From a virus: DNA of 46,630 bases. The position numbers and the translations under genes were made by a program. Numbering within the stretch: the first letter of the stretch is position 1; each line of letters opens with the position of its first letter. The notes under the pieces were generated by a model. That model made no database searches. It had not been told where the DNA came from and saw only the letters and a list, made by a program, of their open reading frames with translations. Shown here in pieces: positions 33,203 through 46,630 of this stretch. The stretch lies in IMG/VR virus record IMGVR_UViG_3300044627_003984, positions 1 to 46,630 of that record; one strand, given 5' to 3'.

Positions 33203-33232
33203 TCAGACTCCTAAGGTTGAGGTACCTCAGTC

Positions 33233-33589
33233 CTAATGCTGAGGCCTCTCGGGCGAGATGTCAGGATGAACGGCGTCCTCAACTTCTTTGGTCAGGACCC
33301 GCAGTTGCTGGATCTCCATTCGGAGTTCCTTGACGATCAGGTGTAGATCGCGGTTCTCATTACGGAGGGCCTCGATCTCTTGTCGGGCCTCTTCGAGTTC
33401 CTTACGAACCTCCGTAAGGACGTCCGCAATCGCGTCCACGGCCGCACCGGCGCTGTTGACGACGTTGGAGTGCACGTCTGACTTCTGCTTTGGGCGGGTC
33501 GTGAAGTAAGTGGCTAGCGCAGCAATGGGTGCTGCTAGCAGTCCTACCGCGGCAACAAGGAGCGACGTATCCACAGTAATGGTTTCCAT
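33233..33589 (-). CDS. Membrane-anchored coiled-coil protein
   Basis: 118 residues: one N-terminal transmembrane helix (LLVAAVGLLAAPIAALATYF), a short basic turn, then a coiled coil (TEVRKELEEARQEIEALRNE, then LIVKELRMEIQQLRVLTKEV). This N-in or N-out bitopic layout is seen in phage spanin-like or holin-partner proteins of actinophages. It directly follows a holin-like gene. It may regulate lysis timing, but a direct role is not shown. Confidence 0.65.
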   Translation of the reverse strand: METITVDTSLLVAAVGLLAAPIAALATYFTTRPKQKSDVHSNVVNSAGAAVDAIADVLTEVRKELEEARQEIEALRNENRDLHLIVKELRMEIQQLRVLTKEVEDAVHPDISPERPQH

Positions 33590-33609
33590 GGCGGGTACCT
33601 GAGGATCGA

Positions 33610-33828
33610 CTAGTCGGCGTTAATGCCGAAGCGAGGGTCCTTAGGGTCGAGTGCCGAGATGATGATCGGAAGAACTGAGGCGATTCCTGCGGAGACCCAT
33701 GTGCGAAGGTCCGTGGCGTCCACCGAGAAGACGTCTGCGCCGTCTGCGAGAAACAGACCCAAAACGACAGCGAGGAAGACCTTGGCATATGACCAGGCCA
33801 TCCGGGCCCAAGGGGAATCAAGACTCAT
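33610..33828 (-). CDS. Holin-like small membrane protein
   Basis: 72 residues; ATG at 33828 with an AGGAGG upstream. It has two hydrophobic segments (YAKVFLAVVLGLFLADG and GIASVLPIIISALDP) joined by a polar loop, and an N-terminus starting MSLDSPWARMAWSY. This is the size and topology of actinophage two-helix holins (compare phage r1t / DUF-type holins with a LADG-like turn). It is separated from the endolysin by about 5 kb, so a holin role is probable but unproven. Confidence 0.65.
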   Translation of the reverse strand: MSLDSPWARMAWSYAKVFLAVVLGLFLADGADVFSVDATDLRTWVSAGIASVLPIIISALDPKDPRFGINAD

Positions 33829-33888
33829 GCGAACCTCCTGTCGGTTCCTCTATTGTCGGAGAGGTGCTACCGATGCGTCACTGCAAAC

Positions 33889-35448
33889 TCACGCAAAGAA
33901 CGGGTTCTCCGAAACCTCTACGTTGGGAAGAGTCAGATCTGCAGTCAGGCTGCACGCAATGGCCAGTGAGTCCACGAAGTCGTCGTGTGCGTGTGCCTCG
34001 TCGGGGGCAGCCACCAACATGTTGGGACCTTTGAAGTTGACCTCAGCATCCGTCATCTGTTGGTAGAACCTCTTCCATGCGCGAAGGCGACGTGTCTTCG
34101 CGTGCGAAGGCCAGCCCACAAGGCGCCGCTGCATGAGTGCCTGAAGGTGTTTCCAACGTTTCGACTGCTCGCTGGGGCTTGACGTGAGAGAGATGACCTC
34201 GGCCCGCGGAAGAAGAATCTTTAGTCGCTGCGCGACCGCGTCGCCGACTCCGTTCGCGTCTACACCCACAGCCAGAATGTCGTAGTTGGATAGGAAGTTC
34301 GTGATTTGGAAGTACTGATCCTCCCAGTCATCTCCCTGTATCTCTAGCCAGTTAAGAACTCGGTGGTCGAAGTACCCAAACTCATCAGGGCGATCCCAGT
34401 CAACCCAGACAACGGTTACGACCGTTGAGTCGGTCTTGCGAGCCGGGTCGATACCGACGACGACCGGGGACCTGAACCATGACTTCACGGTCTCCTGAGA
34501 GGTATCCCCGAGGTCATCCATGAGACTGGATGTGACGAACATGCCGCGTTCGAGAAGCCACTTGCAGTTGTAGGACATTTGGAACTCGTCTGAGTCCTCA
34601 CCGATGCGGAGCATCTCCTTGCGGATGAACTTGGCGTAGTTCTCGTTGTACTTTGAGACGTCTCGCCAGTTCCATTCGAAGTGGTTCTGCCGCGCAGCCC
34701 TTCCAGTTTGACGGCGGCGGTTGAGTTGAATGGACCGGTAGAAGTTGTTCTTCGACGTGGTTGGTGTACCTGTTTTGACGAAAGTACCGGCGTAGTACGC
34801 CAGCATGGGCGCGATGGACTTGACGACCACGAAGTCGTCGGCTTCCTGACACTCGTCGACCACCACCAGGTGGAAGGACTTTGACTCGATCTTGGCCCGA
34901 GGGTTCGCGGTCATCATCGTGAGGGTCGAGCCCGACTTCTTGAGGCGGATCGACTTGGTGACCCCGGGTACGCGCCCCGTTTCGTCATCGATCTCCGGAT
35001 CACCCAGGATCTCCAAGGCTCTCTCGGAGGTCAGTCGCGTCACGGTACGGCCGAAGAGTGTCTCGGCCTGCCCCTCGGTTGGCGCGAAAAGGCCCACCCA
35101 GAATCCGTCCTTGAACTTGCCGAGAAGGTCCGGGTAGATCTGTGCCAGACGGGGCAGCAAGACCATGAGCGTGGCCACAGTGTTGGCGATGGTCTCGGAC
35201 TTGCCGGACTGGCGGGCTGCGAGACCGGTGATCTCTTCTCCGTCCCCGATGATGACGGACTCGATGATGCGCCGGGAGAGTGGTTCTTGATAGGGGTGTA
35301 GAGAGTGCCCGACCAGGACCTCCATGAACTGCATCGTTCGATCGACCAGTTGGTCAACGAAGTCCTTGGACAGTTCGTCTAGAGCCTCCTCAGAGGACTC
35401 CTGGTCCAGGGTCTCTTCGAGGGCTTCGTCTTCGAGGTCGTTTGTCAT
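33889..35448 (-). CDS. Terminase large subunit
   Basis: 519 residues from the ATG at 35448; an in-frame ATG at 35496 would add 16. The ATPase domain has a Walker A-like ARQSGKSETIANTVATLM near residue 79 and Walker B FHLVVVDECQEADDF near residue 197. The RNase H-like nuclease domain has VVGIDPARKTDSTVVTVVWV, ILAVGVDANGVGDAVAQRL and AHAHDDFVDSLAIAC, supplying the conserved acidic residues. An acidic N-terminal extension (EDEALEETLDQESSEEALDE) precedes the ATPase domain. It drives DNA packaging through the portal. No separate small terminase was recognised, though 35520-35792 is a candidate from its position. Confidence 0.93.
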   Translation of the reverse strand: MTNDLEDEALEETLDQESSEEALDELSKDFVDQLVDRTMQFMEVLVGHSLHPYQEPLSRRIIESVIIGDGEEITGLAARQSGKSETIANTVATLMVLLPRLAQIYPDLLGKFKDGFWVGLFAPTEGQAETLFGRTVTRLTSERALEILGDPEIDDETGRVPGVTKSIRLKKSGSTLTMMTANPRAKIESKSFHLVVVDECQEADDFVVVKSIAPMLAYYAGTFVKTGTPTTSKNNFYRSIQLNRRRQTGRAARQNHFEWNWRDVSKYNENYAKFIRKEMLRIGEDSDEFQMSYNCKWLLERGMFVTSSLMDDLGDTSQETVKSWFRSPVVVGIDPARKTDSTVVTVVWVDWDRPDEFGYFDHRVLNWLEIQGDDWEDQYFQITNFLSNYDILAVGVDANGVGDAVAQRLKILLPRAEVISLTSSPSEQSKRWKHLQALMQRRLVGWPSHAKTRRLRAWKRFYQQMTDAEVNFKGPNMLVAAPDEAHAHDDFVDSLAIACSLTADLTLPNVEVSENPFFA

Positions 35449-35519
35449 ATCCGTCCGGATGGTGGTCGAGGTGAAGGCCCTCCTAGCCTTCGCCATCCGG
35501 GCGGGACTGTCAGTACAAA

Positions 35520-35792
35520 CTACCGGCCTAGCGCGCCGTACACCTGGCTGTGGGCGACTCCGTAGACCTTGGAAATCGAAACCGGGCTGAGATGTCCAAC
35601 CTTGTTGAGGACCCGCCACTCATCGGTTCGGGACTCGGTAGGCGTGGCCACCGGCTCTTCCATGCACCACGACGAGCAGTAGACTTTGTTTCGGAGCGCT
35701 ACCAGCCCGTCTGTCCAACCGATGGTCCTGCGGCAAGAGGCGCATCTGACGCCTAGCGGTTGCGGGGCCCGATTCGGCTTGGCGGTACCCAC
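35520..35792 (-). CDS. Zinc-ribbon and helix-turn-helix-like small protein upstream of terminase
   Basis: 90 residues from the GTG at 35792 that overlaps the previous stop (TAGTG). A CASC...CSSWC cysteine set forms a probable zinc ribbon, and the C-terminal ~35 residues (RTDEWRVLNKVGHLSPVSIS, then KVYGVAHSQVYGALGR) look like a helix-turn-helix. The place just upstream of the large terminase and the DNA-binding look make it a candidate small terminase or DNA recognition factor; this is inference. A longer frame to 35870 would lie inside the neighbouring gene. Confidence 0.6.
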   Translation of the reverse strand: MGTAKPNRAPQPLGVRCASCRRTIGWTDGLVALRNKVYCSSWCMEEPVATPTESRTDEWRVLNKVGHLSPVSISKVYGVAHSQVYGALGR

Positions 35793-36022
35793 TACAGCCC
35801 CTCGCTTCGGGCGATATCCGTGAGCCCGTTGATGAGCGAGAAGATGGTGTCGGAGTTGAGAGGAAACCAATATCCGCGTCCGTACTCATCAAGGCTGGGG
35901 ATGTAATCACGAAGTTCGATCACGCGTACGCCTTCCACCTCCACGATACGGACCCGGCACTCCAGATCTGTCGCTTTCGCGATCGTTTGAACAACCCGGG
36001 CCGATGCTGGATTCTTTGCCAT
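35792..36022 (-). CDS. Small protein of unknown function
   Basis: 76 residues from the ATG at 36022 (an in-frame GTG lies one codon earlier), with GGAAG upstream. It is a compact alpha-beta protein (ECRVRIVEVEGVRVIELRDY, then WFPLNSDTIFSLINGLTDIA). No family recognised. It is the first gene after a ~480-base gap and is translationally coupled to the zinc-ribbon gene. Confidence 0.65.
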   Translation of the reverse strand: MAKNPASARVVQTIAKATDLECRVRIVEVEGVRVIELRDYIPSLDEYGRGYWFPLNSDTIFSLINGLTDIARSEGL

Positions 36023-36503
36023 CACATGCTTCCGTCTCGTAGTCGGTATGTTGCTGTTGTGACGAATGCAGACTACCTCACCGCGGGTTCATAGTACAAC
36101 ACCCCTCGCGGGGTACTGACGGGGCCACACTGAGTACCCACCCGTTTACCCAGCCGCCTACGAGAATTCATGACCGCTTATTCTCACTCGTCAGTCTTGC
36201 TGCCGGTCAAGTAGTAGGTTCTGCGGACAGTCTTCACCCACCATCGTTTCGGGGGAAACACATGTCGATGCTTTGTTCTTTCAGCCCGCTGGACCGTGGG
36301 TACGACACCACGGGTACTGACAGCGACGGCAATGTCCACTTTGCCATTGAGGCTACGTCGTGCGTGACGCCTGATCAAAGGACATTCATTCAGGTGGACT
36401 GCTTATGCGGTAGAAGCGGCGCCGACGAGGCCCTACACAACGAGACGCAGGCCGTCACGACGGTACGCGTCTGGCGAACTGCACACCGGGGCATATTGCC
36501 CGA
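36023..36503. other. Longest gene-poor gap of the window
   Basis: No minus-strand gene is convincing here. The stretch holds a hairpin ACCCC-TCGC-GGGGT at 36101-36114, a weak minus-strand ORF (36184-36378, TTG start, 64 codons, basic) and a plus-strand ORF (36262-36507) that is better supported. A 32-codon minus-strand frame (about 36072-36170) is also open. This is the likeliest place for a promoter or other control element of the head gene block, but no clear -35/-10 pair was seen. Confidence 0.5.
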
Positions 36504-36507
36504 TTAG
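36262..36507 (+). CDS. Possible plus-strand gene, 81 residues
   Basis: This is the only plus-strand frame that looks like a gene by itself. It has GGGGG six bases before the ATG, GC-rich third codon positions, and little competition from a minus-strand frame with similar quality. The product (MSMLCSFSPLDRGYDTTGTD, then GNVHFAIEATSCVTPDQRTF and VDCLCGRSGADEALHN) has four cysteines and no recognised family. It ends overlapping the 3' end of the gene at 36504-36734. It remains uncertain because every other gene is on the minus strand. Confidence 0.35.
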   Translation: MSMLCSFSPLDRGYDTTGTDSDGNVHFAIEATSCVTPDQRTFIQVDCLCGRSGADEALHNETQAVTTVRVWRTAHRGILPD

Positions 36508-36734
36508 CCTCGGCGGCGCGCCAGTTCTGTGGTCGCGGCCAGCAAGACCTGGGCGGCGGTGTGGGCATCTTTCAAGAAGACGTCTTGGGGGTCGCGTAGG
36601 TACGCCGTGAGGCTGCGCCCGGCGGCGTACAGGGCCTGGTCAGACCAGGCCACGATGTCCTCCTGGGTCATCTTGGAAACCCTGCGGTGCACCTTCTCGG
36701 GAATCTCCGCCTCAAGAGCCTTACGCCTGAACAT
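36504..36734 (-). CDS. Small helical protein
   Basis: 76 residues, mostly helical and rich in alanine and arginine (EIPEKVHRRVSKMTQEDIVA, then AYLRDPQDVFLKDAHTAAQV). No recognised domain. It overlaps the upstream gene by 14 bases, which supports translation as part of the same transcript. Confidence 0.65.
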   Translation of the reverse strand: MFRRKALEAEIPEKVHRRVSKMTQEDIVAWSDQALYAAGRSLTAYLRDPQDVFLKDAHTAAQVLLAATTELARRRG

Positions 36735-36972
36735 CTATCTCTCTCCATCCAATGGCGCCCCGCAGGGCGGTCTCTTCGTCCTGCTGCTCGGTCCAGCGAC
36801 CCAACACCACGGCCCGCGTGGACAGCGGGACCCGGAAGACCAAGGACGCCCCGGCTCTGTACGGGTACTCGATCTCTGTGGTCTGCCCGCGGTCTACTAG
36901 TGGGAACCTGCGAGTGGGATACCGCATTCCGTGGACGAAGGTCTTCTTTCCGATGTCGTGAACCTCGGGCAC
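36721..36972 (-). CDS. Small protein of unknown function
   Basis: 83 residues with beta character (KKTFVHGMRYPTRRFPLVDR, then EYPYRAGASLVFRVPLSTRA and VLGRWTEQQDE). It shares the stop/start base with the KTSC gene (36972). No membrane segment or known motif. Reality is supported by tight packing between two overlapping genes. Confidence 0.65.
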   Translation of the reverse strand: MPEVHDIGKKTFVHGMRYPTRRFPLVDRGQTTEIEYPYRAGASLVFRVPLSTRAVVLGRWTEQQDEETALRGAIGWREIDVQA

Positions 36973-37781
36973 TACTTCCTGGCCTTTCTGGGCTTCTTGC
37001 TCTTGGTGGGGTTGATGCGGGCCGCGCTACGGTCTGTCTGTCCGGTCAGTTGTCCGTCGTAGACCCACTGCCCGGTCCTGGCGATCCGGTAGAGGCCCTC
37101 GCGGGCCGCCATGCTGGCGCTCGCCATACTGGCGGTGCCTCGGGGCTTGGCGTCCAGCACCGCGAAAATGTAGCGGCCCTTCGAGTGGTTGACCTTGAAG
37201 GACGCCCATTCGCCCTCGGAGACGTCGTAGTAGTTGTAGAACGTTCCGTCTCGGAAAACCACAGTCAAGACTTTGCGGGAGCCGTCGTAGCCTGCGGCAA
37301 CGGTGCGGGGCCTCTCCGGGTTGATGCTTGACGTTGGGATGAGCGTGATCGGCGCCGGTTCACGACCCGACCCAGAAACGACGGGCCCTCCGGTGGGTTG
37401 GCCAGTGTCCGGATCAATTACCGTCGTGGCGAGGTTCGCGTAGTTATAGCCGGACTGGTCGTAGTCGAAGTACTCGTCCCAGGTGCCGCCCGTGGTGTCG
37501 GAGTCTCCGAACGCGCCCTGCGCGGTCTTGAACTCTGCGGTCTGCGCCGCGACCGGCAGACCAGCGAAGGGGGACACCACACGGGTGCGGTCCATCAGTG
37601 ACGCCGCGGCGACAGCATCGTCTACCGTCATGGCGTAGCCGCCACGGCCGCTGGCGATTCTCTTGGGCACTGCTGTGGGGTCCAACCGTGCCTCGTAGTT
37701 ACGGCGGATGGACATCTCCTGAGCCGACGGCAGCCGCACTGAGTTCTTGCGACTGACCCCGTCGGGGTTCACGCGAGCCAT
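36972..37781 (-). CDS. KTSC domain protein
   Basis: 269 residues from the ATG at 37781, which overlaps the previous TGA (TGATG); the longer frame to 37853 would run inside that gene. The C-terminal half contains a KTSC domain (RTVAAGYDGSRKVLTVVFRD, then GTFYNYYDVSEGEWASFKVN and HSKGRYIFAVLDAKPRG). KTSC domains are small beta domains often carried by phage and lysyl-tRNA synthetase-associated proteins; the function is unclear. The N-terminal half is polar and repetitive in Gly/Thr, and the C-terminus is very basic (PTKSKKPRKARK). Possibly binds nucleic acid or a protein partner. Confidence 0.78.
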   Translation of the reverse strand: MARVNPDGVSRKNSVRLPSAQEMSIRRNYEARLDPTAVPKRIASGRGGYAMTVDDAVAAASLMDRTRVVSPFAGLPVAAQTAEFKTAQGAFGDSDTTGGTWDEYFDYDQSGYNYANLATTVIDPDTGQPTGGPVVSGSGREPAPITLIPTSSINPERPRTVAAGYDGSRKVLTVVFRDGTFYNYYDVSEGEWASFKVNHSKGRYIFAVLDAKPRGTASMASASMAAREGLYRIARTGQWVYDGQLTGQTDRSAARINPTKSKKPRKARK

Positions 37782-38032
37782 CAGGTTTCCTCGCCGGGGC
37801 AGTGGTGTGATGCGGCCTCGGTGTCCTCGATAACGGATCCGCAGGAGGTGCACCGCAGGTACGTCGGAACGCGGTAGCCGTTCTGCGCGGTGGCTCGGGG
37901 GTCAGGGTCGTTGGGCTCCACGGGCTCCACAGGATTGGGGGCCATGACCTCGCTGGGCCAGGGACCTCTCGGCTGATGGGCCGTAGTGGGAATGGCGTGC
38001 CCCTGAACCGCTGGCCGCCGAATGACTCGCAC
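37781..38032 (-). CDS. Small zinc-finger protein
   Basis: 83 residues; GTG at 38032. A proline-rich N-terminal half (NPVEPVEPNDPDPRATAQN) precedes a single zinc-binding motif CTSCGSVIEDTEAASHHC (C2HC). Stop overlaps the KTSC start. Likely a DNA- or protein-binding miniprotein; function unknown. Confidence 0.7.
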   Translation of the reverse strand: MRVIRRPAVQGHAIPTTAHQPRGPWPSEVMAPNPVEPVEPNDPDPRATAQNGYRVPTYLRCTSCGSVIEDTEAASHHCPGEET

Positions 38033-38037
38033 GACGC

Positions 38038-38328
38038 CTACTCTTCGGTGCTGTCTGCCTCAGGCTCGTCTTGAACCTCCGGCTCCGGCTGCGATGCTTC
38101 CTCGGCCGCGGCCTCGACCTCCTTGGGAGCAGACCGACGGCGGCGAGGCTTCAGGCTGGACAGGGCCGCGTCACGCTTCTCGGCGAAAGCCTCGGTGGTG
38201 GGCAGTGACCCCGCCTTGGCGGCCTGCTTGAGGAACGAGGGCAGGTGCGCGCTGCAGTATGGCGTGGGCGCAAGTGGCTTCGGGTCGTAAATGTAGACCG
38301 CGGGGGAATCGCAGTTGGCGCAGTTCAT
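38038..38328 (-). CDS. Small zinc-finger protein with acidic tail
   Basis: 96 residues. The N-terminus MNCANCDSPAVYIYDPKPLA followed by PTPYCSAHLPSFL is a C-x2-C...C-x2-H zinc site. The middle is basic (LSSLKPRRRRSAP) and the tail very acidic (QPEPEVQDEPEADSTEE). This actinophage-type layout is common, with no assigned function. The start overlaps a 16-codon frame (MKIRPEVRWRDRGGSR) whose TGA crosses the ATG (ATGA), a possible leader peptide. Confidence 0.7.
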   Translation of the reverse strand: MNCANCDSPAVYIYDPKPLAPTPYCSAHLPSFLKQAAKAGSLPTTEAFAEKRDAALSSLKPRRRRSAPKEVEAAAEEASQPEPEVQDEPEADSTEE

Positions 38329-38452
38329 CGAGAACCTCCTCTGTCACGCCAACGTACTTCAGGACGGATTTTCATAGTGGCTATACGCGTCGCGATCGTT
38401 GGTGGTCTACGGCGTGGAAAGACCTTCCAACGGCGACTGGCGGCCAACAGTG
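38329..38452. other. Short intergenic region with leader peptide and hairpin
   Basis: These ~124 bases carry a hairpin (TGGAA-n5-TTCCA at 38415-38429) and, close to the next gene, a 16-codon minus-strand frame beginning about 38375 that ends across the start of the zinc-finger gene. They could form a short regulatory leader. No clear promoter was seen. Confidence 0.4.
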
Positions 38453-38617
38453 TCAGTCTTCACGCTTTGAACGGTTGATGGCATTCCTAGTCTTGGTAGA
38501 ACGGTCCCTGTCACGCTTGGTTCGGCGGTCTCCGAACTTCTGCACCTTCTGGTTCAGTTGATAGACCCCAGGGGCCCCTTTACCGAACTCGAAGTCAGGA
38601 CGGCTGGCTTTGCCCAT
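38453..38617 (-). CDS. Small basic protein, 54 residues
   Basis: MGKASRPDFEFGKGAPGVYQ followed by a strongly basic C-terminus (RRTKRDRDRSTKTRNAINRS). It is shorter than usual ORF cut-offs but reads as real coding sequence. It overlaps the 3' end of the DUF3263 gene by 23 bases. A nucleic-acid-binding role is plausible from charge only. Confidence 0.6.
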   Translation of the reverse strand: MGKASRPDFEFGKGAPGVYQLNQKVQKFGDRRTKRDRDRSTKTRNAINRSKRED

Positions 38618-38912
38618 CACGTCTCCGCACGCTGGATCGGGTCGTCATGCTGGGGCTGGACTCGATGTTCGACCGAGAACGACGCACGACCTCGGGGGCG
38701 TACGCCACGGCCTCCGGGTGGTCGAGGAGACCCACCAGTTTGGTGTAGTAACTGGTAGCGCTCAGCCCCAACTCGGTGCGGATGGCCTCGTCGCGGTGCC
38801 CGACCTTGGTCCAGGACTGTCGACCGAAGTCCAAGATGCTCTTCTCGTAGTCCGTCAGAGGTGGCCGGGAGGATCGGTCTGCGGAGTCTTCGAAGTCTCC
38901 GCGGTTTCTCAT
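38595..38912 (-). CDS. DUF3263-like protein
   Basis: 105 residues. The central segment LTDYEKSILDFGRQSWTKVG followed by HRDEAIRTELGLSATSYYTK and VVRRSRS matches DUF3263 (LTDxExxILxFExxWW...AIRxxFxxSxTRYYQxLNxLL), a small helix-turn-helix-like family nearly restricted to Actinobacteria and their phages. It is thus a useful host marker. It may regulate transcription; the WW pair of the family is SW here. It overlaps the endolysin gene by 4 bases (ATGA). Confidence 0.85.
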   Translation of the reverse strand: MRNRGDFEDSADRSSRPPLTDYEKSILDFGRQSWTKVGHRDEAIRTELGLSATSYYTKLVGLLDHPEAVAYAPEVVRRSRSNIESSPSMTTRSSVRRRDGQSQPS

Positions 38913-39844
38913 GGCTTGACCTTGCCGAACATCCGCCGCTGCGTGTTTTCGGAGAAGGCTCCGTGCGCGTTCTTCCAGCCCTGCCCCCGCTGGAACATCC
39001 TGACAGCGTCCTCCGGGTATCCCTGATCACCCGCGGGCAGAACGTCCTTGTTGTAGAAGCCGAGGTCGTGCAGGCGGCATGTCACGCGCCAGGCAGCCTT
39101 GTTCTTGAGGCCCTCCAGGCGGGCCTTCTCGACCGCGCTCTGGGTTGGTACGGTGCCGTCCCAGATCTCGTCGGACTTGAGGAATTTCTTTGTCGTGGCC
39201 CTCCAGTAGGGCGCGTTGTAGTTCTGGACCGCGCTGCTTCCTGGGTACTCACGCCAGGCACCGTCAAGGGTGTCGTTCTTTCGACCCACGCAGGGGCTGG
39301 GACCCGTGGGGTTCCAGCCATGACACCCGTCGGTGTAGCACTTGTGAGTGCCGATGGCCTTGTCTACGTCCCAACCACAGAGATCAGCCAGTGCAGCGAG
39401 CGTCCTCCCCGTGTTCTCGATCTGGTAGTCCGTCAGAGAATCCGTACGGACACCCTTGTCGTCGATCTCGATCCCGAACAGCCGAGTCTGACCAAGGAAT
39501 CCACGCGATGGGATTCCGAGTGCGGGGACTGGGCCGCCGTCGCCACAGTGGTAGGCGCTACCGGCGCTAAGGAGGTACGTCTCTCCCGGAGCCTTGCCGA
39601 CAAGAAGATTGCAGACCGGCTTGTCGTACGCAGTGACCGCCCAGTAGAGAACACCGTTGATGTTGCCAGGACGGGAATTGGGATTGGCTGTGTGATGAAC
39701 GACGGCGCCGGTCAAGCCGGGAGAGCCATCAGGACCTGACCACGGACGACCGATGGTGTCCCATGCTTTGTAGGTCTGAAGATCAACGCCGTAGTCACGG
39801 AGCGCGGCCAGCATCTGTGACGGGCTTGGATTCAGTGTGCTCAT
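38909..39844 (-). CDS. Endolysin, N-acetylmuramoyl-L-alanine amidase
   Basis: 311 residues. An amidase_2 (PGRP-like) domain fills about residues 40-190: VVHHTANPNS gives the first zinc ligand (H50 or H51), LFGIEIDDKG the conserved glutamate strand, and IGTHKCYTDGCHGWNPTGPS the second histidine near residue 165 with the DP-type cysteine loop. The C-terminal ~100 residues (VTCRLHDLGFYNKDVLPAGD, then YPEDAVRMFQRGQGWKNAHG) look like a peptidoglycan-binding domain. It should cleave the sugar-peptide bond at lysis. No signal peptide, so it needs a holin. Confidence 0.92.
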   Translation of the reverse strand: MSTLNPSPSQMLAALRDYGVDLQTYKAWDTIGRPWSGPDGSPGLTGAVVHHTANPNSRPGNINGVLYWAVTAYDKPVCNLLVGKAPGETYLLSAGSAYHCGDGGPVPALGIPSRGFLGQTRLFGIEIDDKGVRTDSLTDYQIENTGRTLAALADLCGWDVDKAIGTHKCYTDGCHGWNPTGPSPCVGRKNDTLDGAWREYPGSSAVQNYNAPYWRATTKKFLKSDEIWDGTVPTQSAVEKARLEGLKNKAAWRVTCRLHDLGFYNKDVLPAGDQGYPEDAVRMFQRGQGWKNAHGAFSENTQRRMFGKVKP

Positions 39845-40143
39845 GCGCTTGCTCCGCTGTCGGCGTCCCGCACGTCCTGTGGATCTGGGTCGGCGACGAC
39901 TGTGTCGGCTGTGAAGGCGCCCCTGAGGACGTTCCAGCCTCCGTGTGTAGTGAGTTGCTCGTTGGACATGACGTCAGCGAGGTCTTGTCCACCACCGGAT
40001 CCCAACATCCGCTTGGTTGTGGGTGTGGCTTTCCGAGTTTTCGGATCTACCGGCATCAGGGCACCTCCGGGTGATGTCTCCCTACTCAGGGTGCCGTACG
40101 TTTGAAGACCCGTCCCAGCAAAGTTCGTGCTGTACTCCCACAA
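39841..40143 (-). CDS. Small protein upstream of endolysin
   Basis: 100 residues; not recognised. N-terminal part is Gly/Thr-rich (YSTNFAGTGLQTYGTLSRET), the middle basic (PVDPKTRKATPTTKRMLGSG), then helical (DLADVMSNEQLTTHGGWNVL). It overlaps the endolysin start by 4 bases, so its expression is tied to lysis. Confidence 0.6.
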   Translation of the reverse strand: MWEYSTNFAGTGLQTYGTLSRETSPGGALMPVDPKTRKATPTTKRMLGSGGGQDLADVMSNEQLTTHGGWNVLRGAFTADTVVADPDPQDVRDADSGASA

Positions 40144-40162
40144 GCGCAGTCCTTCTTGGCGC

Positions 40163-40453
40163 TCACCACTTCACCTTGTTGGCCCAGTAGGCCGCGCTCA
40201 TCTTGCCCTTAGCGATGTTGTCGGCATGGCGAGCCTTGAACGACTCGCGGCGGTTTCGGTAGGACTCTGACTCACCGTCCTTCTTCGGAGATCCCTTAGT
40301 GCCCTGCTCTCCGAAACGGATCAACTTGACCTGGTCGCCTTCCTTGGCGACTACGGCGTGAGACTTCGTCGGATGGTCGGGGGTCTTGACTGGCTTGTTG
40401 TAGCCCGATGCGCCGATCTTTGTCAGTCGGGGGTCCTTCTTAGATTCCGCCAT
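40163..40453 (-). CDS. Conserved small phage protein
   Basis: 96 residues from the ATG at 40453 that overlaps the HNH gene stop (TGATG). The C-terminal block KGSPKKDGESESYRNRRESF followed by KARHADNIAKGKMSAAYWAN and KVKW is a strongly conserved pattern in many phage genomes, usually next to packaging or HNH genes. The protein is basic and charged. No established biochemical function that I can name with certainty. Confidence 0.75.
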   Translation of the reverse strand: MAESKKDPRLTKIGASGYNKPVKTPDHPTKSHAVVAKEGDQVKLIRFGEQGTKGSPKKDGESESYRNRRESFKARHADNIAKGKMSAAYWANKVKW

Positions 40454-40740
40454 CACTTGGCCCTTCGCTTGTTCTCCTTGCCGATGTTCTCTTTACGAGA
40501 TACCGCCCGGAGATTCTTGTTTGAGTCGTTGTTCTTGTTGTTGTCCTTATGGTCGACGTGTGTCGATTTCGGCAAGTTCTTGCCGGTTTTGGACTCGTAA
40601 TCGGCTCTGGCCTTGTTGGTAGACGTAGTAGAGCCGTCTGATTTCCTAATCACGTATATCTTGCGGCCGTCATTCTGCTTTGAACCCTTGTACGGTCCGT
40701 AGACCTTGGAGCCGTCGGCACGCTTCTTGGGCTCAGGCAT
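40453..40740 (-). CDS. HNH endonuclease-like protein
   Basis: 95 residues from the ATG at 40740; the longer frame to 40845 would overlap the 46-residue gene. The N-terminal half has a small beta domain (KVYGPYKGSKQNDGRKIYVI). The HNH core is THVDHKDNNKNNDSNKNLRA: HVDHKDxN then N-x-NL, in the order of the HNH zinc/metal motif (H...N...N). No group I intron or inserted gene is visible around it, so a free-standing homing or packaging-related nuclease are both possible. It overlaps the next gene by 3-4 bases. Confidence 0.8.
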   Translation of the reverse strand: MPEPKKRADGSKVYGPYKGSKQNDGRKIYVIRKSDGSTTSTNKARADYESKTGKNLPKSTHVDHKDNNKNNDSNKNLRAVSRKENIGKENKRRAK

Positions 40741-40873
40741 ATCCCCACCAGTGCTGGCCGGGATTCTCGTACGTGAAGATCGACGGGCCGGTCTGGTTGA
40801 GAGACCTGGCGCGGTGTCGCGAGATGGGCACAGTGCCCGTAGCACCGAAGAATTCGAACTCGCTGCGTCGCAT
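40733..40873 (-). CDS. Small protein, 46 residues
   Basis: MRRSEFEFFGATGTVPISRH followed by RARSLNQTGPSIFTYENPGQ and HWWGYA. Its TGA overlaps the HNH start by 8 bases. It starts two bases after the previous stop. Short but well placed in a gapless run; function unknown. Found by reading, below usual length cut-offs. Confidence 0.55.
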   Translation of the reverse strand: MRRSEFEFFGATGTVPISRHRARSLNQTGPSIFTYENPGQHWWGYA

Positions 40874-40874
40874 C

Positions 40875-41441
40875 TCAGGCCTTCGGCGCCTTCGGGGCAC
40901 GGGGCTTTTTGGCCCCCTGTGCAGGTGCCGCCTTCTTAGCCGCTGCCCGCTTGGCCGGGGCAGTTGACCCCGAGACCGACGTCGGAGAGGCTGAGACGGG
41001 CTTGCTGGGGCCGCTGCTTCCGGCCGCGTGGTCGTAGTTCTCTCGCGTCAACTTCGCGTCGAGCCTCTTGCTCGATCGTGCCTGCTTACCGCGCTCGCGC
41101 TCCATGCGGACTTCGTGTTCGCGATCGGCGGACCTGTTGCTCATCTCGAAGGTTCGCTGTGCCAGACGCTGCTGGCCTTCACCCTCAAACTTCCTGTCCT
41201 GCATCGACCGCTCATGATCGAACCGATTCTGGTCACGATTGGCGTTTTCGAATGCCTGGGCATGGAAGAGTTCCATGTTGTAGGCGTGCTGCTGAGCGGA
41301 ACGCTCCACAGCGCTGGAATGCTCGGTGTTGATGCGGACCTGCTCCCGACGGCGGTCATCCATACCGTCGAACAACTTCCGCAGGGGCTTGACGAGATCG
41401 AAGCCGCCGTTGCTGTAACCGCCGCCTAATGCACCAGACAT
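40875..41441 (-). CDS. Coiled-coil charged protein with Lys/Ala-rich tail
   Basis: 188 residues from the ATG at 41441, which has AGGAGG six bases upstream; an upstream frame to 41459 contains that site. After a Gly-rich start, residues ~20-130 are a long charged coiled coil (GMDDRRREQVRINTEHSSAV, then RSMQDRKFEGEGQQRLAQRT and EHEVRMERERGKQARSSKRL). The tail is disordered and rich in Ala, Lys and Pro (KRAAAKKAAPAQGAKKPRAP), like histone H1-type nucleoid or virion-internal proteins. Function unknown. Confidence 0.7.
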   Translation of the reverse strand: MSGALGGGYSNGGFDLVKPLRKLFDGMDDRRREQVRINTEHSSAVERSAQQHAYNMELFHAQAFENANRDQNRFDHERSMQDRKFEGEGQQRLAQRTFEMSNRSADREHEVRMERERGKQARSSKRLDAKLTRENYDHAAGSSGPSKPVSASPTSVSGSTAPAKRAAAKKAAPAQGAKKPRAPKAPKA

Positions 41442-41482
41442 GGAACCTCCTGCAACCATGGTGGCTGCAGAAGGGCCCCACG

Positions 41483-41611
41483 TCAGGCCTTACGTACCGG
41501 GGGCAACTGGATCTCCAGCATGTTCTCGTACAGGGTCACATACGGGGCAAGCACGTACCCGCTGCTGGTCAGCCGCAGCGCGTAGAATGTGAAGGACCAG
41601 CCTACAGACAC
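41483..41611 (-). CDS. Small protein, 42 residues
   Basis: GTG at 41611, overlapping the 3' end of the transglycosylase gene. Sequence VGWSFTFYALRLTSSGYVLA followed by PYVTLYENMLEIQLPPVRKA is free of stops and looks ordered and partly hydrophobic. No family. The ~40 bases after it hold the ribosome site of the next gene. Confidence 0.5.
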   Translation of the reverse strand: MSVGWSFTFYALRLTSSGYVLAPYVTLYENMLEIQLPPVRKA

Positions 41612-42129
41612 TTCTTGGGGAACTGCGCGTAGTATCGTTCAAAGGGAATGACGATCCAGTTCTGGTGATGCCAACTCGACCATCCTCCGTACGCCGAGAA
41701 GTCGTACGACACCTGTCCCTTATGGACTCGAAGGCCCCAGGGCTGCCAGTTCATATCGCGGACCATCTTGCGCATGGCGGTGAAACTCTGAACCGGGTCG
41801 TAGATGTTGTCGGGCCAGTACTTGGTCCCGCTCCAGGATGGCGAATTTAGTTGGACTATCCCGAGGTCCGGATACGTGTTCTCGTTCGGGTTTCCATTGG
41901 ACTCTCTTTGCGCAATCGCCCACGCTACGCGAACTGAGGCGCCCTTGATTCCGGCCTCACGGATCCAGGCGACCACTTGGTCCTTGCAGCGGTTCTTCTC
42001 GGTCTTCTTGCGTTCGTTCTCCTTTACGGTCTCCTGGATCTGCAGTACTTGTGCCTTTGGGGCCTCTACTGCGGGTGCCGAATACAGGGAGGAGGCAGCA
42101 ATGACCGCCGCAACAAGGGATGACAGCAA
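41602..42129 (-). CDS. Secreted lysozyme-like transglycosylase
   Basis: 175 residues from a TTG at 42129 with GAAAGG upstream; a longer frame to 42246 runs through the 44-residue gene next to it. The start gives a signal-type N-terminus (LSSLVAAVIAASSLYSAPAV), followed by a charged helix (QIQETVKENERKKTEKNRCK). The core VRVAWAIAQRESNGNPNENT has the catalytic glutamate of the lysozyme-like SLT fold, followed by YPDLGIVQLNSPSW and a Trp-rich end (YGGWSSWHHQNWIVIPFERY). It may loosen peptidoglycan at infection or lysis and could be exported without a holin. Confidence 0.78.
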   Translation of the reverse strand: MLSSLVAAVIAASSLYSAPAVEAPKAQVLQIQETVKENERKKTEKNRCKDQVVAWIREAGIKGASVRVAWAIAQRESNGNPNENTYPDLGIVQLNSPSWSGTKYWPDNIYDPVQSFTAMRKMVRDMNWQPWGLRVHKGQVSYDFSAYGGWSSWHHQNWIVIPFERYYAQFPKKCL

Positions 42130-42175
42130 GGAATCGCCTTTCGTAGGGGGCAGGACAGGGGCCTCGATCGGGGGG

Positions 42176-42310
42176 TCAGAACTCGTCGTCGCCCCAGTCG
42201 ATGTCCTCGTAGTCGCGGAGGATGAACAGCGCGAGGGTTCCCACACACCAGCCGACGACTGCTCCCGTGACGGCGAGGATCCCCATACCCACGAAGGCCC
42301 ATGGACTCAT
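42176..42310 (-). CDS. Small one-helix membrane protein
   Basis: 44 residues: MSPWAFVGMGILAVTGAVVG followed by WCVGTLALFILRDYEDIDWG and DDEF. One or two hydrophobic helices with an acidic C-terminal tail. Next to the transglycosylase, so a holin or lysis accessory role is possible. Below usual ORF length cut-offs. Confidence 0.6.
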   Translation of the reverse strand: MSPWAFVGMGILAVTGAVVGWCVGTLALFILRDYEDIDWGDDEF

Positions 42311-42368
42311 CCCGACAGTGTACTAGAAACTGCGGGTCAAACAGACGGACCGGCGTGTCCGTTTACGT

Positions 42369-42506
42369 TTACAGGTAGCGCGAGAAGATCGCGTCAATCT
42401 CGTCGCGATGCGACGGCGACATGGCACGCGAGCGCTGGAAGTCCCATTCCTCTCTAAGGGAGCGATAGCGGGACTTGGCACGGAATCTATTGAGGATGCT
42501 TCGCAT
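42369..42506 (-). CDS. Small basic protein, 45 residues
   Basis: MRSILNRFRAKSRYRSLREE followed by WDFQRSRAMSPSHRDEIDAI and FSRYL. Amphipathic, positively charged helix-rich peptide. It lies between the lysis genes and the tRNA. No recognised family; coding quality looks good. The 58-base gap to the next gene shows nothing special. Confidence 0.55.
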   Translation of the reverse strand: MRSILNRFRAKSRYRSLREEWDFQRSRAMSPSHRDEIDAIFSRYL

Positions 42507-42586
42507 ACATCGAGGGTGTCACTCCACCACACGCAGCGTCACCTGAAGGTCTGTGAGGTCTCCCACTAGTTCCGCTTCCCCGGTTG

Positions 42587-42659
42587 CTGACGTGGAAGGA
42601 CTCGAACCTTCAACCGTCCGGTTAACAGCCGGATACTCTGCCAGTTGAGTTACACGCCA
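42587..42659 (-). tRNA. tRNA-Asn (anticodon GTT)
   Basis: A complete cloverleaf can be folded by eye on the minus strand: acceptor stem TGGCGTG with CACGTCA (one G-T pair), D-arm, anticodon stem TCCGG/CCGGA with loop CTGTTAA (anticodon GTT), and a T-arm GAAGG-TTCGAGT-CCTTC. The discriminator base is G and the following bases are CAA, so the CCA end is not encoded. This is the only tRNA seen in the window. Confidence 0.92.
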
Positions 42660-42713
42660 TCAGTCGTCGTCTGACCAGTCTCCATACAGGATGGTCCAGA
42701 TGTCATCGTCCAT
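42660..42713 (-). CDS. Possible 17-codon mini-ORF
   Basis: MDDDIWTILYGDWSDDD, ending one base before the tRNA 5' end. It is very short and acidic, so it may be only the natural composition of a leader; listed because it fills the whole gap between the membrane peptide gene and the tRNA. Confidence 0.2.
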   Translation of the reverse strand: MDDDIWTILYGDWSDDD

Positions 42714-42717
42714 GGAC

Positions 42718-42846
42718 TCACGGTAACGACTTCTTCTCCCGTGCGAGGGCTCTACTCCAGGTCCATCGCAGGACGATCTGCGTCCCGTAGAAGACAACCG
42801 CAAAGACCACCAGGTAGGCCGCAATGATCACGTTTGCGCGGCCCAC
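42718..42846 (-). CDS. Small one-helix membrane protein
   Basis: About 42 residues from a GTG at 42846 (a GTG at 42831 is also possible; the start is uncertain). VIIAAYLVVFAVVFYGTQIV is one transmembrane helix followed by a positive tail (LRWTWSRALAREKKSLP). The longer in-frame stretch to 42948 covers two hairpins and is probably not coding. A small phage membrane peptide; lysis or superinfection roles are possible. Confidence 0.5.
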   Translation of the reverse strand: MGRANVIIAAYLVVFAVVFYGTQIVLRWTWSRALAREKKSLP

Positions 42847-42972
42847 CCGGTGGTCCCTGGGTAGCGGGTTAGATAAACGAACTCTCGGTAGACGTGAGAG
42901 GCCCGAAGGGCCGCTCGCGAAGTTCCGCCGCACGCCGTAAGGCGACAATGGAGCCGTTTAAGACTGTGTTGA
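42847..42972 (-). terminator. Hairpin pair between PASTA and membrane peptide genes
   Basis: Downstream of the PASTA gene the minus-strand transcript can form two hairpins: CGCC-TTAC-GGCG (42944-42933) and GGCCC-TTC-GGGCC (42912-42900). No U-run follows. They may be a terminator-like or processing element at the end of the PASTA gene. Nothing else recognised in this gap. Confidence 0.45.
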
Positions 42973-43383
42973 CTACGGGGTGTGCGCGAACCTGACCAGG
43001 GCCACGACCTTGCTGTTGTAGCCGCCGCTGGGGTTGATGACCGTTCCGGCCGCCGGGGTCTGGGTCTTGATCGTGCCGTTGTTGCCAGCGGTGGCACCGG
43101 CAGCGTTGTTGGCAGTCGTGACCGCACCCTTGGTGAGTCCAGCAGCCGTCAGTGCTGTCGTCGCTGCGGCCTCGGTCATGCCGACCACGTTGGGAACCGT
43201 GATGTCGTCCCAGGTGCCGGTGTTGTTGTTCACGAAGCCGGGGTAGCCGCTCCAACCGGAGGACACGATGTTGTGGTTATCGAGGTCCGGGTCAAGGGGC
43301 GTCACTCGGTCGTCGTTGGGCTGCATGGGCATGTTGCCCCACACGTAATCGACGGCGACGTTACCTGCGTCATCACGGGCCAT
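42973..43383 (-). CDS. PASTA domain protein
   Basis: 136 residues. After an N-terminal part that reads like a small structural protein (VAVDYVWGNMPMQPNDDRVT then SSGWSGYPGFVNNNTG), residues ~62-130 form one PASTA domain (VPNVVGMTEAAATTALTAAG, then IKTQTPAAGTVINPSGG). PASTA domains bind peptidoglycan or muropeptides in bacterial kinases. It shares this domain with the Hint protein at 20472-21305. Probably a virion or secreted cell-wall-binding protein; no signal peptide is visible. Confidence 0.8.
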   Translation of the reverse strand: MARDDAGNVAVDYVWGNMPMQPNDDRVTPLDPDLDNHNIVSSGWSGYPGFVNNNTGTWDDITVPNVVGMTEAAATTALTAAGLTKGAVTTANNAAGATAGNNGTIKTQTPAAGTVINPSGGYNSKVVALVRFAHTP

Positions 43384-43394
43384 TGTCTGTCTCC

Positions 43395-43601
43395 TCAGTT
43401 CGGCTTGCTTTCATGATCGACAATGGGCGCCTCGATGTCAGTGTCAAGTGACCACGTCTCTAGTAGGACACTGTTCTTGGCGACTAGTGCATCCATGTGC
43501 CGCCTTGCGTGATGGCCGCAGAGGTAGATGTTCTTGCCCGAGGACAGCGTGACCTCGAACTGCGACATCGCCGGGCAGCCGTCGCAGCGTTCCTTGTTCA
43601 T
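43395..43601 (-). CDS. Small zinc protein, DUF7455-like
   Basis: 68 residues with CDGCPAMSQFEVTLSSGKNI followed by YLCGHHARRHMDALVAKNSV. The C-x2-C...C-x-HH pattern and the V-LxSGxxxxLCxHHxxxH layout match the actinobacterial DUF7455-type zinc proteins. Function unknown; frequent in actinophage genomes, which supports the host inference. Confidence 0.75.
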   Translation of the reverse strand: MNKERCDGCPAMSQFEVTLSSGKNIYLCGHHARRHMDALVAKNSVLLETWSLDTDIEAPIVDHESKPN

Positions 43602-43611
43602 TATGTGGAAG

Positions 43612-44442
43612 TCACCTCAGCCCCCGCCAGCGGATGGGCTGGTAGGCCTCCTGGTTGACCCAGCCCTCTTCACCTGTACCGAAGATCTTCTGATCGAGGG
43701 TGGGCTGGTACTCGGTGTGTCTCATGATCCGGGTAGGTACCTTCTGGCGGCGAAGTTCAAGGACCGTCTCCCGGGCGGAGGTCCCATCGAGATCTCCAAG
43801 GCTGTCCCTAAAGACGGTTGCCCTCTTCACCTGGCTGAGGGGAATCGGCCCTCCGTGGACCTGGACCTCGCGGTACTCCTCGTCCGGATGGTGATCTCCA
43901 TAACGGTGGTAGATGCTGAGGTCGTCGACGTCATCTTTGGTGTAGTTGCGCTCGTCGTAGGAGCCCGTCCAGGAGTCGAAGTTGTTCAGCGAGTCGCCGG
44001 GAGTGGTGGTCACTCGCCGGTCTCCAGTGTGGAGATCAAAGGTCACATCTCCGTACACGCTCGGATGTTCGCTGGACTTGCTGCGCAGACTTCCGTAAAT
44101 GGGTCGCTCCTCATGGGGAGCGTCCCGGGGGATGTCGAACAGGCCTGCTTCCACGCCACGGCGGTTGCGTTCGTAGGCTCCGCCCATTCCGCCGTACAGG
44201 GTGGCGCCGGGGGCGAAGCCGTTCATGATGTGACCGCTGTGGGACACCCGACGAGCGCCGATGTGCGGCATGCTCACGGAGACTTCCTGGTCCTCAGCGG
44301 GGCCTGCGGACCGGGCCTGCGCACGCTGGGATCCGGCCCGCATCATCTGGCCCGCGTAGCGGTCGAAGTCTGCCCCCAGAGACGGCTGCTTCCATTGCCC
44401 GAACTGCGACGAACTGCCGTGCGAGTACCGCTCTTCGTTCAT
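43612..44442 (-). CDS. DUF3626-like protein
   Basis: 276 residues from the ATG at 44442; a longer frame to 44640 would overlap the sulfotransferase gene. The central block EERPIYGSLRSKSSEHPSVY followed by GDVTFDLHTGDRRVTTTPGD and S fits the DUF3626-type signature (ERPxYGxL...YGxVxxxL...R-T-GDS) found in actinophages, next to an N-terminal MPHIGARRVSHSG segment. Some members of this group are thought to share the ADP-ribosyltransferase fold, which would make it a host-takeover candidate; the catalytic residues are not confirmed here. C-terminal ~100 residues are mixed alpha-beta (QVKRATVFRDSLGDLDGTSA). Confidence 0.72.
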   Translation of the reverse strand: MNEERYSHGSSSQFGQWKQPSLGADFDRYAGQMMRAGSQRAQARSAGPAEDQEVSVSMPHIGARRVSHSGHIMNGFAPGATLYGGMGGAYERNRRGVEAGLFDIPRDAPHEERPIYGSLRSKSSEHPSVYGDVTFDLHTGDRRVTTTPGDSLNNFDSWTGSYDERNYTKDDVDDLSIYHRYGDHHPDEEYREVQVHGGPIPLSQVKRATVFRDSLGDLDGTSARETVLELRRQKVPTRIMRHTEYQPTLDQKIFGTGEEGWVNQEAYQPIRWRGLR

Positions 44443-44480
44443 GACTACTATGGTGCAGGTTGTAGTTACAGATGAACTGC

Positions 44481-45074
44481 CTAAGTGGGCGGCGTGCACC
44501 CGCAGTCGCGCTGCAGTGCGCCCTTGAATGCTTCGTGGGCTTCGTGAAGTGCCGTTAGGATGTCTTTGTCTCTCCAGAGATCTTTTGGGACCTGGATCGG
44601 CGATAACGACGGTGTTGTGTCGCTGCGCAACTCCCCCCAACGAACCACGAAGACGCGGCCTGTCAGCGGCAATCGCCTACCGACGTCGTCGAGTGCTTCC
44701 TGCGGGCCCTGGATAAGGTTCGTGAAGTCCACAAATGTCCACTCTGCTTGCGTCTGTGCACGCAGGAGAGACCGGTAGTGTCGTAGGTATCCGGCAACTT
44801 CGTCTTCTGCGTGACTCGTAGTTCCCTGAAACCGGAGGAAACTCTCTGCGGCCTCACGGGGACATCTCACCGGGGACAGCACGCGAATACCGCTGCCCGC
44901 GCAGGTCTGTACATTCTGAATAGAATGCTTGATTTCAGTACCGTCCGGTAGGACGTTTCCGGGCTCGATGACCCGCGTCTCGTCGGGATACCTGAGCCTG
45001 ATTGCCGACGCCAAGAATATGTTTCCGCAACGGGGTGGCCCCATCACGACGACGGAGGTGCTACCGGATGACAT
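44481..45074 (-). CDS. Sulfotransferase-like P-loop protein
   Basis: 197 residues. The N-terminus SVVVMGPPRCGNIFLASAIR carries the 5'-phosphosulfate-binding loop typical of sulfotransferases (xPPRxGxxxL) at about residues 10-20, followed by strands around IRVLSPVRCPREAAESFLRF (compare the RdP/PxxxxxS 3'-phosphate loop) and a VFVVRWGEL strand. The family transfers sulfate from PAPS to sugars or other acceptors. Short compared with the usual ~250-300 residues. Next to a methyltransferase and a small ORF, so a role in modifying a small molecule or glycan is possible. Not firmly proven. Confidence 0.65.
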   Translation of the reverse strand: MSSGSTSVVVMGPPRCGNIFLASAIRLRYPDETRVIEPGNVLPDGTEIKHSIQNVQTCAGSGIRVLSPVRCPREAAESFLRFQGTTSHAEDEVAGYLRHYRSLLRAQTQAEWTFVDFTNLIQGPQEALDDVGRRLPLTGRVFVVRWGELRSDTTPSLSPIQVPKDLWRDKDILTALHEAHEAFKGALQRDCGCTPPT

Positions 45075-45198
45075 TCCTGGTCATCTCGGGATTCAGTGTC
45101 TCGATGGGTTCGTGCTCTGTGCTTTCTTTGTCGAACGCGAGGAGCGCGCTCGACATGGCCCGCATCAGGGCGGCCAAGAACCCCTCGTTGTGGCTCAC
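45061..45198 (-). CDS. Small protein, 45 residues
   Basis: GTG at 45198 overlaps the methyltransferase stop (GTGA), and the 3' end overlaps the sulfotransferase-like start by 14 bases. The sequence (SHNEGFLAALMRAMSSALLA, then EHEPIETLNPEMTRNVIR) is helical. The double overlap makes it likely to be translated. Function unknown. Confidence 0.6.
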   Translation of the reverse strand: MSHNEGFLAALMRAMSSALLAFDKESTEHEPIETLNPEMTRNVIR

Positions 45199-46205
45199 GG
45201 AGTCATCTCCACGTCGTCTGGCTTGACGAGAATCGCTACCTCTGCTCCGTCCTTAGGACGCTTGTAGTGTCCCGACCAGTTTCCCGGGAGATAGTCCCCG
45301 ACGAGAAGTAGTCCGGAGTCACGAATCATGCGATCCAGTGCCTGCCGCGTGTACGCGACGGACCCGGACCGGAGCCTGGCGTCATCGACGTAGCATCCCT
45401 CGGAGTGCTCAATCTCAAAAGTCATCGGCTGATGCTTGGTGCGCTTTGGCCAGATGTACTGCTGTTCGTGAACTCTGCGAAGTTCGCGCGCCGATGCGAT
45501 TACGTCATCCGAGTACACAAAGACAGAGGCGTACACCAGTCCCCCAGGCCGCAGAACTCTAAAGATCTCGCGCAAGTAGTGAGATACCTCGTCCTCAAAC
45601 AGGTGCGTAAAGACTGAGTAAACAATCACTTTGTCAATACTTGAGTCTTCGCACGGGATTGCAAAATCAGTCGTCTTCTTGCTTCCAAGAGGGTTGTACA
45701 ATTCGTGGTAGGCGTCAAAGTGCGCAAACTTGAATCGGGGGTCGCTCTTTGTCAAGTTCTTGGTGCACCACGCAATGGAGTCCTGCATGACGTCGATACC
45801 CAGGTACGAGTAAACCTGACGAGGACTCATCAGTTGGATTGCGTCTTTACCGATTCCGCAACCGATCTCCAAGACGTCGTGGGACTCGCTGAGTGATAGG
45901 AATCTCTTGTAGTTGGCAACATGAGATCTACCGGCTGACTCGAAGCCGCCAAAATCGGTTCCCGTGAGAAACAGCAGGTGGCCCGGCATTCGGTAACCCC
46001 TGAAATCGTACGACTTCCACGTTCGTGGAATCCTCAAGGTATCTCCGGACTCCAGCCTCACGTTTACCTGGCCATCAAAAGTGACGGCGCAGGCCACAGT
46101 CTCATCCACCACCTCAAGGTGATCGCCGTCCCGGAACTCGAAGTCCCGGTACTCCTCCAGCGGGACTGAGGCAACAACGGCACCGTCACGAATTACGAGT
46201 ATCAC
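45195..46205 (-). CDS. Class I SAM-dependent methyltransferase with N-terminal beta domain
   Basis: 336 residues from the GTG at 46205, which overlaps the previous TGA (GTGA). An N-terminal ~95 residues of beta character (VASVPLEEYRDFEFRDGDHL) precede a Rossmann methyltransferase: motif I VLEIGCGIGKDAIQLM near residue 113, motif II YLGIDVMQDSIAW, then IDKVIVYSVFTHL and REIFRVLRPGGLVYASVFVY. This is the methyltransf_11/25 group that usually methylates small molecules or sugars, not DNA (no DPPY/NPPY or target-recognition domain). It stands in the same operon as a sulfotransferase-like protein. Confidence 0.85.
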   Translation of the reverse strand: MILVIRDGAVVASVPLEEYRDFEFRDGDHLEVVDETVACAVTFDGQVNVRLESGDTLRIPRTWKSYDFRGYRMPGHLLFLTGTDFGGFESAGRSHVANYKRFLSLSESHDVLEIGCGIGKDAIQLMSPRQVYSYLGIDVMQDSIAWCTKNLTKSDPRFKFAHFDAYHELYNPLGSKKTTDFAIPCEDSSIDKVIVYSVFTHLFEDEVSHYLREIFRVLRPGGLVYASVFVYSDDVIASARELRRVHEQQYIWPKRTKHQPMTFEIEHSEGCYVDDARLRSGSVAYTRQALDRMIRDSGLLLVGDYLPGNWSGHYKRPKDGAEVAILVKPDDVEMTP

Positions 46206-46630
46206 GACTTCCAGACCTTGCCCTCTGGAAAAGCCTTCGCAGGGTGGTAGTACTCGTCCCACATCTCGCCCTTACTGGGAAGACGTCGACCCGGGAAGCG
46301 GGGGCTGTTGTCGCTGCTGCGACCGCTCTTCTTTCGGTACATCGTCACCGGAACGTGCGAAACGCCTTCCAGTGCGGCAGCGGCCAGGCGGTGGTTCCCT
46401 TCCCCTACGAAGGCATTGCCATCGCCCTTGACGTCCTGGTCGACGATCAGGGGATCGACGATTCCCTTACCGGAGCGGATGTCTTCGCGAATCTTGTTGA
46501 CGGTGTCCATCGAGCGGATGTTGTTGCCGCGCATCCCTAGCAGGTACTTGGTCTCCACGAAACCGACGTGCTGTGGCCTGATATTCGAGTAGACGGAACC
46601 GGCCTCGGGGTTGAGGAGGTTGGGATGAAC
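46202..46630 (-). CDS. ParB/Srx-like protein, 5' end beyond window
   Basis: The frame is open from the right window edge to 46202, giving at least 142 residues; the N-terminus is missing (the GTG at 46558 is probably internal). A ParB-like core is clear: VNKIREDIRSGKGIVDPLIV followed by DGNAFVGEGNHRLAAAALEG and VSHVPVTMYRKK (GEGNHRLAAA is the ParB box II type). The C-terminal part is basic with LPSKGEMWDEYYHPAKAFPE. ParB-fold proteins in phages act as nucleases, NTPases or DNA-binding regulators; which is unknown. It is co-translated with the methyltransferase. Confidence 0.75.
   Translation of the reverse strand, partial: VHPNLLNPEAGSVYSNIRPQHVGFVETKYLLGMRGNNIRSMDTVNKIREDIRSGKGIVDPLIVDQDVKGDGNAFVGEGNHRLAAAALEGVSHVPVTMYRKKSGRSSDNSPRFPGRRLPSKGEMWDEYYHPAKAFPEGKVWKS

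Follow-up and report, generated by a model that had tools for sequence, protein, structure and literature searches.

Gene arrangement at the end of a myovirus contig

The window analysed here is a complete IMG/VR record of 46,630 bases, at one end of which four genes follow one another closely on the minus strand. The most upstream (46202..46630) encodes the C-terminal 142 aa of a ParB/Srx-like protein, its frame open at the contig end and its 5' part missing. It is followed by a class I SAM-dependent methyltransferase of 336 aa (MT; 45195..46205; GTG start; Pfam Methyltransf_11), a mini-ORF of 45 aa (45061..45198; GTG start) and a sulfotransferase-like P-loop protein of 197 aa (ST; 44481..45074; ATG start), so named from the motifs and profile tests given below. 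An earlier note on this DNA described four genes overlapping by 4 to 14 bases, with GTGA at two junctions, and this is confirmed: the ParB/MT and MT/mini-ORF junctions are each a GTGA with an overlap of 4 bases, and the mini-ORF and ST overlap by 14. There are no internal stops in any of the four genes. The mini-ORF has GC fractions of 0.54/0.39/0.85 at the three codon positions, a coding-type composition, and found no significant family match in Pfam, PHROGs or further profile searches.

The run extends beyond 44481-46630, as the next gene (43612..44442, minus strand, ATG start, 276 aa) starts 38 bases past the ST stop. Its product has weak DUF3626-like motifs: R-P-x-Y-G-x-L, a T-rich G-D-S stretch and Y-x-E-x-Q-V-H-G occur in DUF3626 order, and its DUF3626 profile score of 23.0 is tied with that of an unrelated window protein. 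Further along the same strand lie genes for a DUF7455 protein (43395..43601; Pfam 6.4e-14; in 15 of 81 related loci) and a PASTA-domain protein (42973..43383; Pfam 1.3e-9; in 46 of the 81). Short overlaps are frequent in this contig, so overlap alone is little evidence of joint function: among 45 adjacent minus-strand pairs, an overlap of 4 bases is possible in nine and one of 1-20 bases in 11, as counted with a crude gene model that missed the ST gene. Third-position GC is 0.662 in both MT and ST. We considered a recent foreign origin by base composition and rejected it, as the two genes, though low (7th and 8th of 47), do not stand out from the rest.

Minus-strand genes elsewhere in the window include those for baseplate, tail sheath, major capsid, portal and large terminase; there are also an SLT transglycosylase-type gene (41602-42246) and an Amidase_2 endolysin-type gene (38909-39844). 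The terminase is 52% identical to those of the Streptomyces phages BRock, GiJojo, LuckySocke, Alone3 and pSt2308, and up to 83% identical to those of environmental contigs that do not belong to this phage. The contig is a myovirus fragment and a distant relative of Streptomyces phage BRock (PMC7453282). Because the five Streptomyces phage genomes are 112-116 kb in size, the record most likely represents under half of the genome.

Window positions 43000-46502 (query bases 129-3631) recur with 100% identity in a second contig, IMGVR_UViG_3300042344_000292, so the four-gene arrangement did not arise by misassembly in a single sample. Over 10,019 bases the two are 99.92% identical, with 8 differences, and this contig offers no variation for testing selection. 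A third, 3300042521_001898, differs from window positions 26384-43798 at 37 of 17,415 positions. The differences among these three are strain variation within the same phage.

Distribution in related phages

The earlier note read the four genes as one coupled unit that may be auxiliary metabolic or anti-defence; that they form a functional unit is not supported by the related phages. By tblastn, ST, the mini-ORF and MT were found in none of the 81 related loci, many of which are fragments, and ParB had a match in one (L052), where it is placed elsewhere; the gene at 43612 matches the same phage only. ST and MT were likewise absent (0/50 each) from records searched whole, most of them fragments, and an empty result of this kind carries little weight unless a positive control goes with it; these are 48 of the 79 IMG/VR loci L008-L086, picked mainly on length, and two INPHARED phages. 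Twenty-five related loci extend at least 3 kb upstream of their PASTA match. Judged from these sequence comparisons, shared genes give way to unshared ones near 43600, and the PASTA gene, which lies upstream of the terminase and is the nearest gene to be broadly shared, may mark the edge between the two. The lack of MT and ST matches in related loci leaves a conserved unit unsupported, and we rejected that idea on the 50 whole records and the 81 loci, many of them fragments. The earlier note had named random neighbours in related phages as grounds for refutation; the result comes close to that outcome, again with many loci being fragments.

The one ParB match (35% by tblastn, E 1e-4) is in L052, a related contig whose major capsid protein is 89% identical to that of the window. 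The protein in question (L052:2820-3434; 204 aa) is 28% identical to our fragment, and its gene is found downstream of PASTA, without MT or ST beside it; the slots upstream of PASTA are occupied by other genes. The ParB/Srx fold has the order strand-helix-strand-strand-helix-strand. The element order in a model of the window fragment, made with the L052 protein, fits this, but at a pLDDT of 41, and a Foldseek search with that model gave no match at E <=0.001, a sulfiredoxin complex appearing at rank 43 with E 4.7. Several ParB-like PHROG families match the fragment; the best of all its PHROG matches, at 2.2e-5, covers that stretch too and is to a family of DNA methyltransferases. The earlier note's ParB fold is plausible by these PHROG matches (up to 2.2e-5), but the match to Pfam ParB_N (PF02195; E 0.059, 13.9 bits) is below the cut-off of 26.3. 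We consider it likely that the window gene has this fold.

Scans of viral contigs for MT relatives returned mostly generic methyltransferases. When the MT family alignment was used as the query, 80 loci came up, of which 79 were new; in these 79 there was no match to ST, the mini-ORF, ParB or the gene at 43612, and none of their 1325 ORFs fits the sulfotransferase motifs. The nearest viral relative (L153) is a methyltransferase among apparent virion genes, as judged by eye. One candidate near such a relative (L159:6999) was rejected: this 260-aa ORF, downstream of the methyltransferase, contains the P-loop-like stretch GGPRNGSW, but a different part of it matches the profile, probably by chance.

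A serious possibility, if one that we would not bet on, is that these are unrelated cargo genes, acquired separately in a variable stretch and tiled in ordinary phage manner, with a common transcript and no common pathway. The 4-base overlaps that nine of the 45 pairs in this contig allow agree with this, as do the lack of MT and ST matches in the 81 related loci, the single ParB match, alone and elsewhere, and the lack of any ST-type motif near MT relatives in the 79 viral loci. It sits less easily with the tailoring type of both MT and ST, and their near-equal third-position GC fits common acquisition, weakly.

The sulfotransferase-like protein and the methyltransferase

Sulfotransferases bind the 5'-phosphosulfate of their cofactor through a P-loop of G-x-P-R/K-S-G-T type, which is visible in the members that we fetched too, and the 3'-phosphate through a motif R-x-P-x-D/E-x-x-x-S that follows a hydrophobic strand. 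ST has VVVMGPPRCGNIFL near its start and RVLSPVRCPREAAES some 40 residues on, and its motifs GPPRCGNIFL and RCPREAAES follow each other as the two cofactor sites do in sulfotransferases. The glycine, proline, arginine and second glycine of the P-loop are retained in GPPRCGN, with CGN where sulfotransferases have SGT. The second motif agrees with the 3'-phosphate site, its inner spacing retained, and aligns with the R-x-P of a sulfotransferase profile in both local and global mode. A two-motif pattern, composed with ST in view, occurs in 12 of 1724 ORFs of at least 120 aa, namely 8 copies of the ST gene and 4 fetched sulfotransferases, the scanned loci including sulfotransferases that had been fetched deliberately.

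The profile was built from an 11-member sulfotransferase alignment, from which one of ten fetched loci (L096) was left out because a wrong frame had been picked for it. In local mode, ST scored 28.7 against a maximum of 20.9 in the 23 other window proteins and lay above 20 shuffles; one of 100 further shuffles and one of 295 control ORFs, by eye a ClpX-like P-loop ATPase, reached its score. In global mode, it scored 23.6 against maxima of 17.7 for 100 shuffles and 18.5 for the 295 control ORFs, which were drawn from 23 loci and have non-genes among them. Plain pairwise comparison gives weak scores (z 0.6 to 3.8). No curated family matches ST, and Pfam, PHROGs and NCBIfam yielded no sulfotransferase model for it; as it reaches no curated cut-off, we leave it outside the sulfotransferase families, though it resembles a member. 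The Sulfotransfer_3 model had no match in 17 related records, and this Pfam model also misses ST itself. Searches by tblastn found no ST relatives beyond the same phage in INPHARED (E 0.01), plasmids, the 398 genomes described below or GTDB contigs; at E 10, INPHARED gave two chance-level matches.

These results support the earlier note's sulfotransferase-like reading of the 197-aa protein, in that two ordered motifs and the profile test point the same way, and a sulfotransferase-type fold is, on this sequence evidence, a good deal likelier than not. With CGN in place of SGT in its P-loop, ST may or may not be active. The note had also named the lack of a PAPS-binding fold at 44481-45074 as grounds for refutation; the AlphaFold2 model of ST, at a pLDDT of 33, is too poor to show a fold. 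ST could instead be a P-loop enzyme of another sort (kinase- or GTPase-like) or have a fold of its own, with the sulfotransferase motifs coincidental. That no curated model matches it, that a ClpX-like control outscores it in local mode, that its P-loop is altered and that structure prediction failed (pLDDT 33 for a single-sequence AlphaFold2 model) all speak for such an enzyme. We nevertheless think it unlikely, though worth keeping in mind, as ST has no Walker A lysine, combines a P-loop arginine with R-x-P-x-E-x-x-x-S at sulfotransferase spacing and ranks top of all in global profile mode.

Residues 111-225 of MT match Methyltransf_11/25 well above the Pfam cut-offs (for Methyltransf_11, 3.3e-14 and 53.7 bits against a cut-off of 21.2), and it has the SAM-binding core. 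A family search covered 398 genomes from the phylum to which a Woeseiaceae MAG belongs; 25 of them gave matches at E 1e-6, the best at 1.3e-29. Ten matches of at least 84 bits, in 8 of the 398 genomes, are set off from the rest, the next best reaching 48 bits. When six of these are aligned with MT, the seven sequences have in common the motifs of the core and, towards the C terminus, G-x-W. Among the nine bacterial neighbourhoods examined (L144-L152), that of the L145 relative has a family-2 glycosyltransferase upstream and a family-4 glycosyltransferase directly downstream, with another glycosyltransferase further on and an HlyD protein nearby, all recognised by Pfam. Five others (L144, L146, L147, L148 and L152), probably not independent of one another, resemble it by eye; one glycosyltransferase in L148 is confirmed by Pfam, and glycosyltransferases on both sides are so confirmed in L145 only. 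The remaining three (L149, L150 and L151) have no evident glycosyltransferase by eye.

Because a bacterial relative sits between glycosyltransferases, a glycan-type acceptor for MT is supported, if not proven. A profile search of the PDB placed phosphomethylethanolamine N-methyltransferase first, which counts against regarding a sugar acceptor as settled; further matches include 3bus (listed as a methyltransferase), MitM, the D-glucose O-methyltransferase 6uv6 and others, a mixed set of N-, O- and other methyltransferases. The earlier note's small-molecule-type SAM methyltransferase agrees with all of this, from the Methyltransf_11 match over cut-off and the bacterial family to the position of the L145 relative between glycosyltransferases.

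The methyltransferase core also bears on the note's suggestion of an anti-defence role, for which we found no evidence. Such a unit would act on nucleic acid or host proteins in anti-defence or host takeover, through a ParB-like protein, a target-masking methyltransferase and further modifying enzymes; the ParB-like PHROG matches, the resemblance of MT core residues 95-250 to the PADLOC mad2 model (8.1e-15) and the DUF3626-like motifs in the gene behind ST are what it can draw on, but the mad2 match is a generic one to the methyltransferase core alone (profile 279-424 of 492) and PADLOC gave no other, a closer member of the MT family lies in a glycan-type neighbourhood, and a window protein with no such kinship reaches the same DUF3626 score, so that we consider it improbable.

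A proposed lineage-specific accessory stretch and its known counterparts

The reading that we prefer, with a probability of about 0.4 for the whole of it, is a lineage-specific accessory stretch that holds a glycan-type methyltransferase and a sulfotransferase-like protein, with ParB independent of them. The stretch would lie at one end of a fragment of a contractile-tailed phage, upstream of the packaging genes, and we regard it as accessory because ST, the mini-ORF and MT were found in 0/81 related loci. The run of genes would be co-transcribed. MT would methylate a sugar or similar small acceptor, and ST, as a minimal sulfotransferase-like P-loop protein, may bind a PAPS-type donor and sulfate the acceptor of MT or a neighbouring one, most likely a glycan of the host surface or attached to the virion. 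The ParB-like gene would be an independent phage gene, upstream by chance. A bolder version, in which methylation and sulfation are two steps in the tailoring of a virion glycan or of the host surface during infection, ST founds a family that present models do not cover and the mini-ORF encodes a partner subunit, strikes us as distinctly improbable.

As matters stand, this is cargo specific to one lineage; two of its enzyme types can be recognised, and comparison with related phages gives no support for a joint function. If ST works beside a glycan-type MT, phage-made sulfated and methylated glycans become a testable role. The function of phage sulfotransferases is described as unclear (PMC10580990), and a sulfotransferase has been reported previously as an auxiliary gene (PMC8290583); the papers that our search on phage sulfotransferases listed include none on this MT/ST gene pair.

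Set against known systems, the window shares with BRock, Alone3 and pSt2308 the order terminase, portal, scaffold, major capsid and sheath. Alone3 and pSt2308, both searched whole, differ from it in having a tRNA-rich stretch upstream of the terminase and no MT or ST match. The ParB-like fragment has weak PHROG matches to phage ParB/Srx-fold proteins and a G-x-H-R-x-A-A-A motif in common with L052, but unlike those proteins it is truncated and under the Pfam cut-off. MT is 24-31% identical to bacterial Methyltransf_11/25 proteins in glycosyltransferase/type I secretion clusters, and differs from these relatives in an N-terminal stretch of its own of ~85 residues and in having no glycosyltransferase recognised alongside it. 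ST is shorter than a phage sulfotransferase (197 against 281 aa), has CGN for SGT, matches no Sulfotransfer model and is without detectable pairwise relatives. It nonetheless resembles the Sulfotransfer_3-type proteins of Synechococcus phage S-SCSM1 and OM43 phages in having similar cofactor-site motifs. Cyanophage S-SCSM1 is also the only parallel that we have seen to the pairing of the two enzymes: within 4 kb of its genome (L101:3992-7966), a gene annotated as a sulfotransferase lies three genes away from one for a class I SAM methyltransferase.
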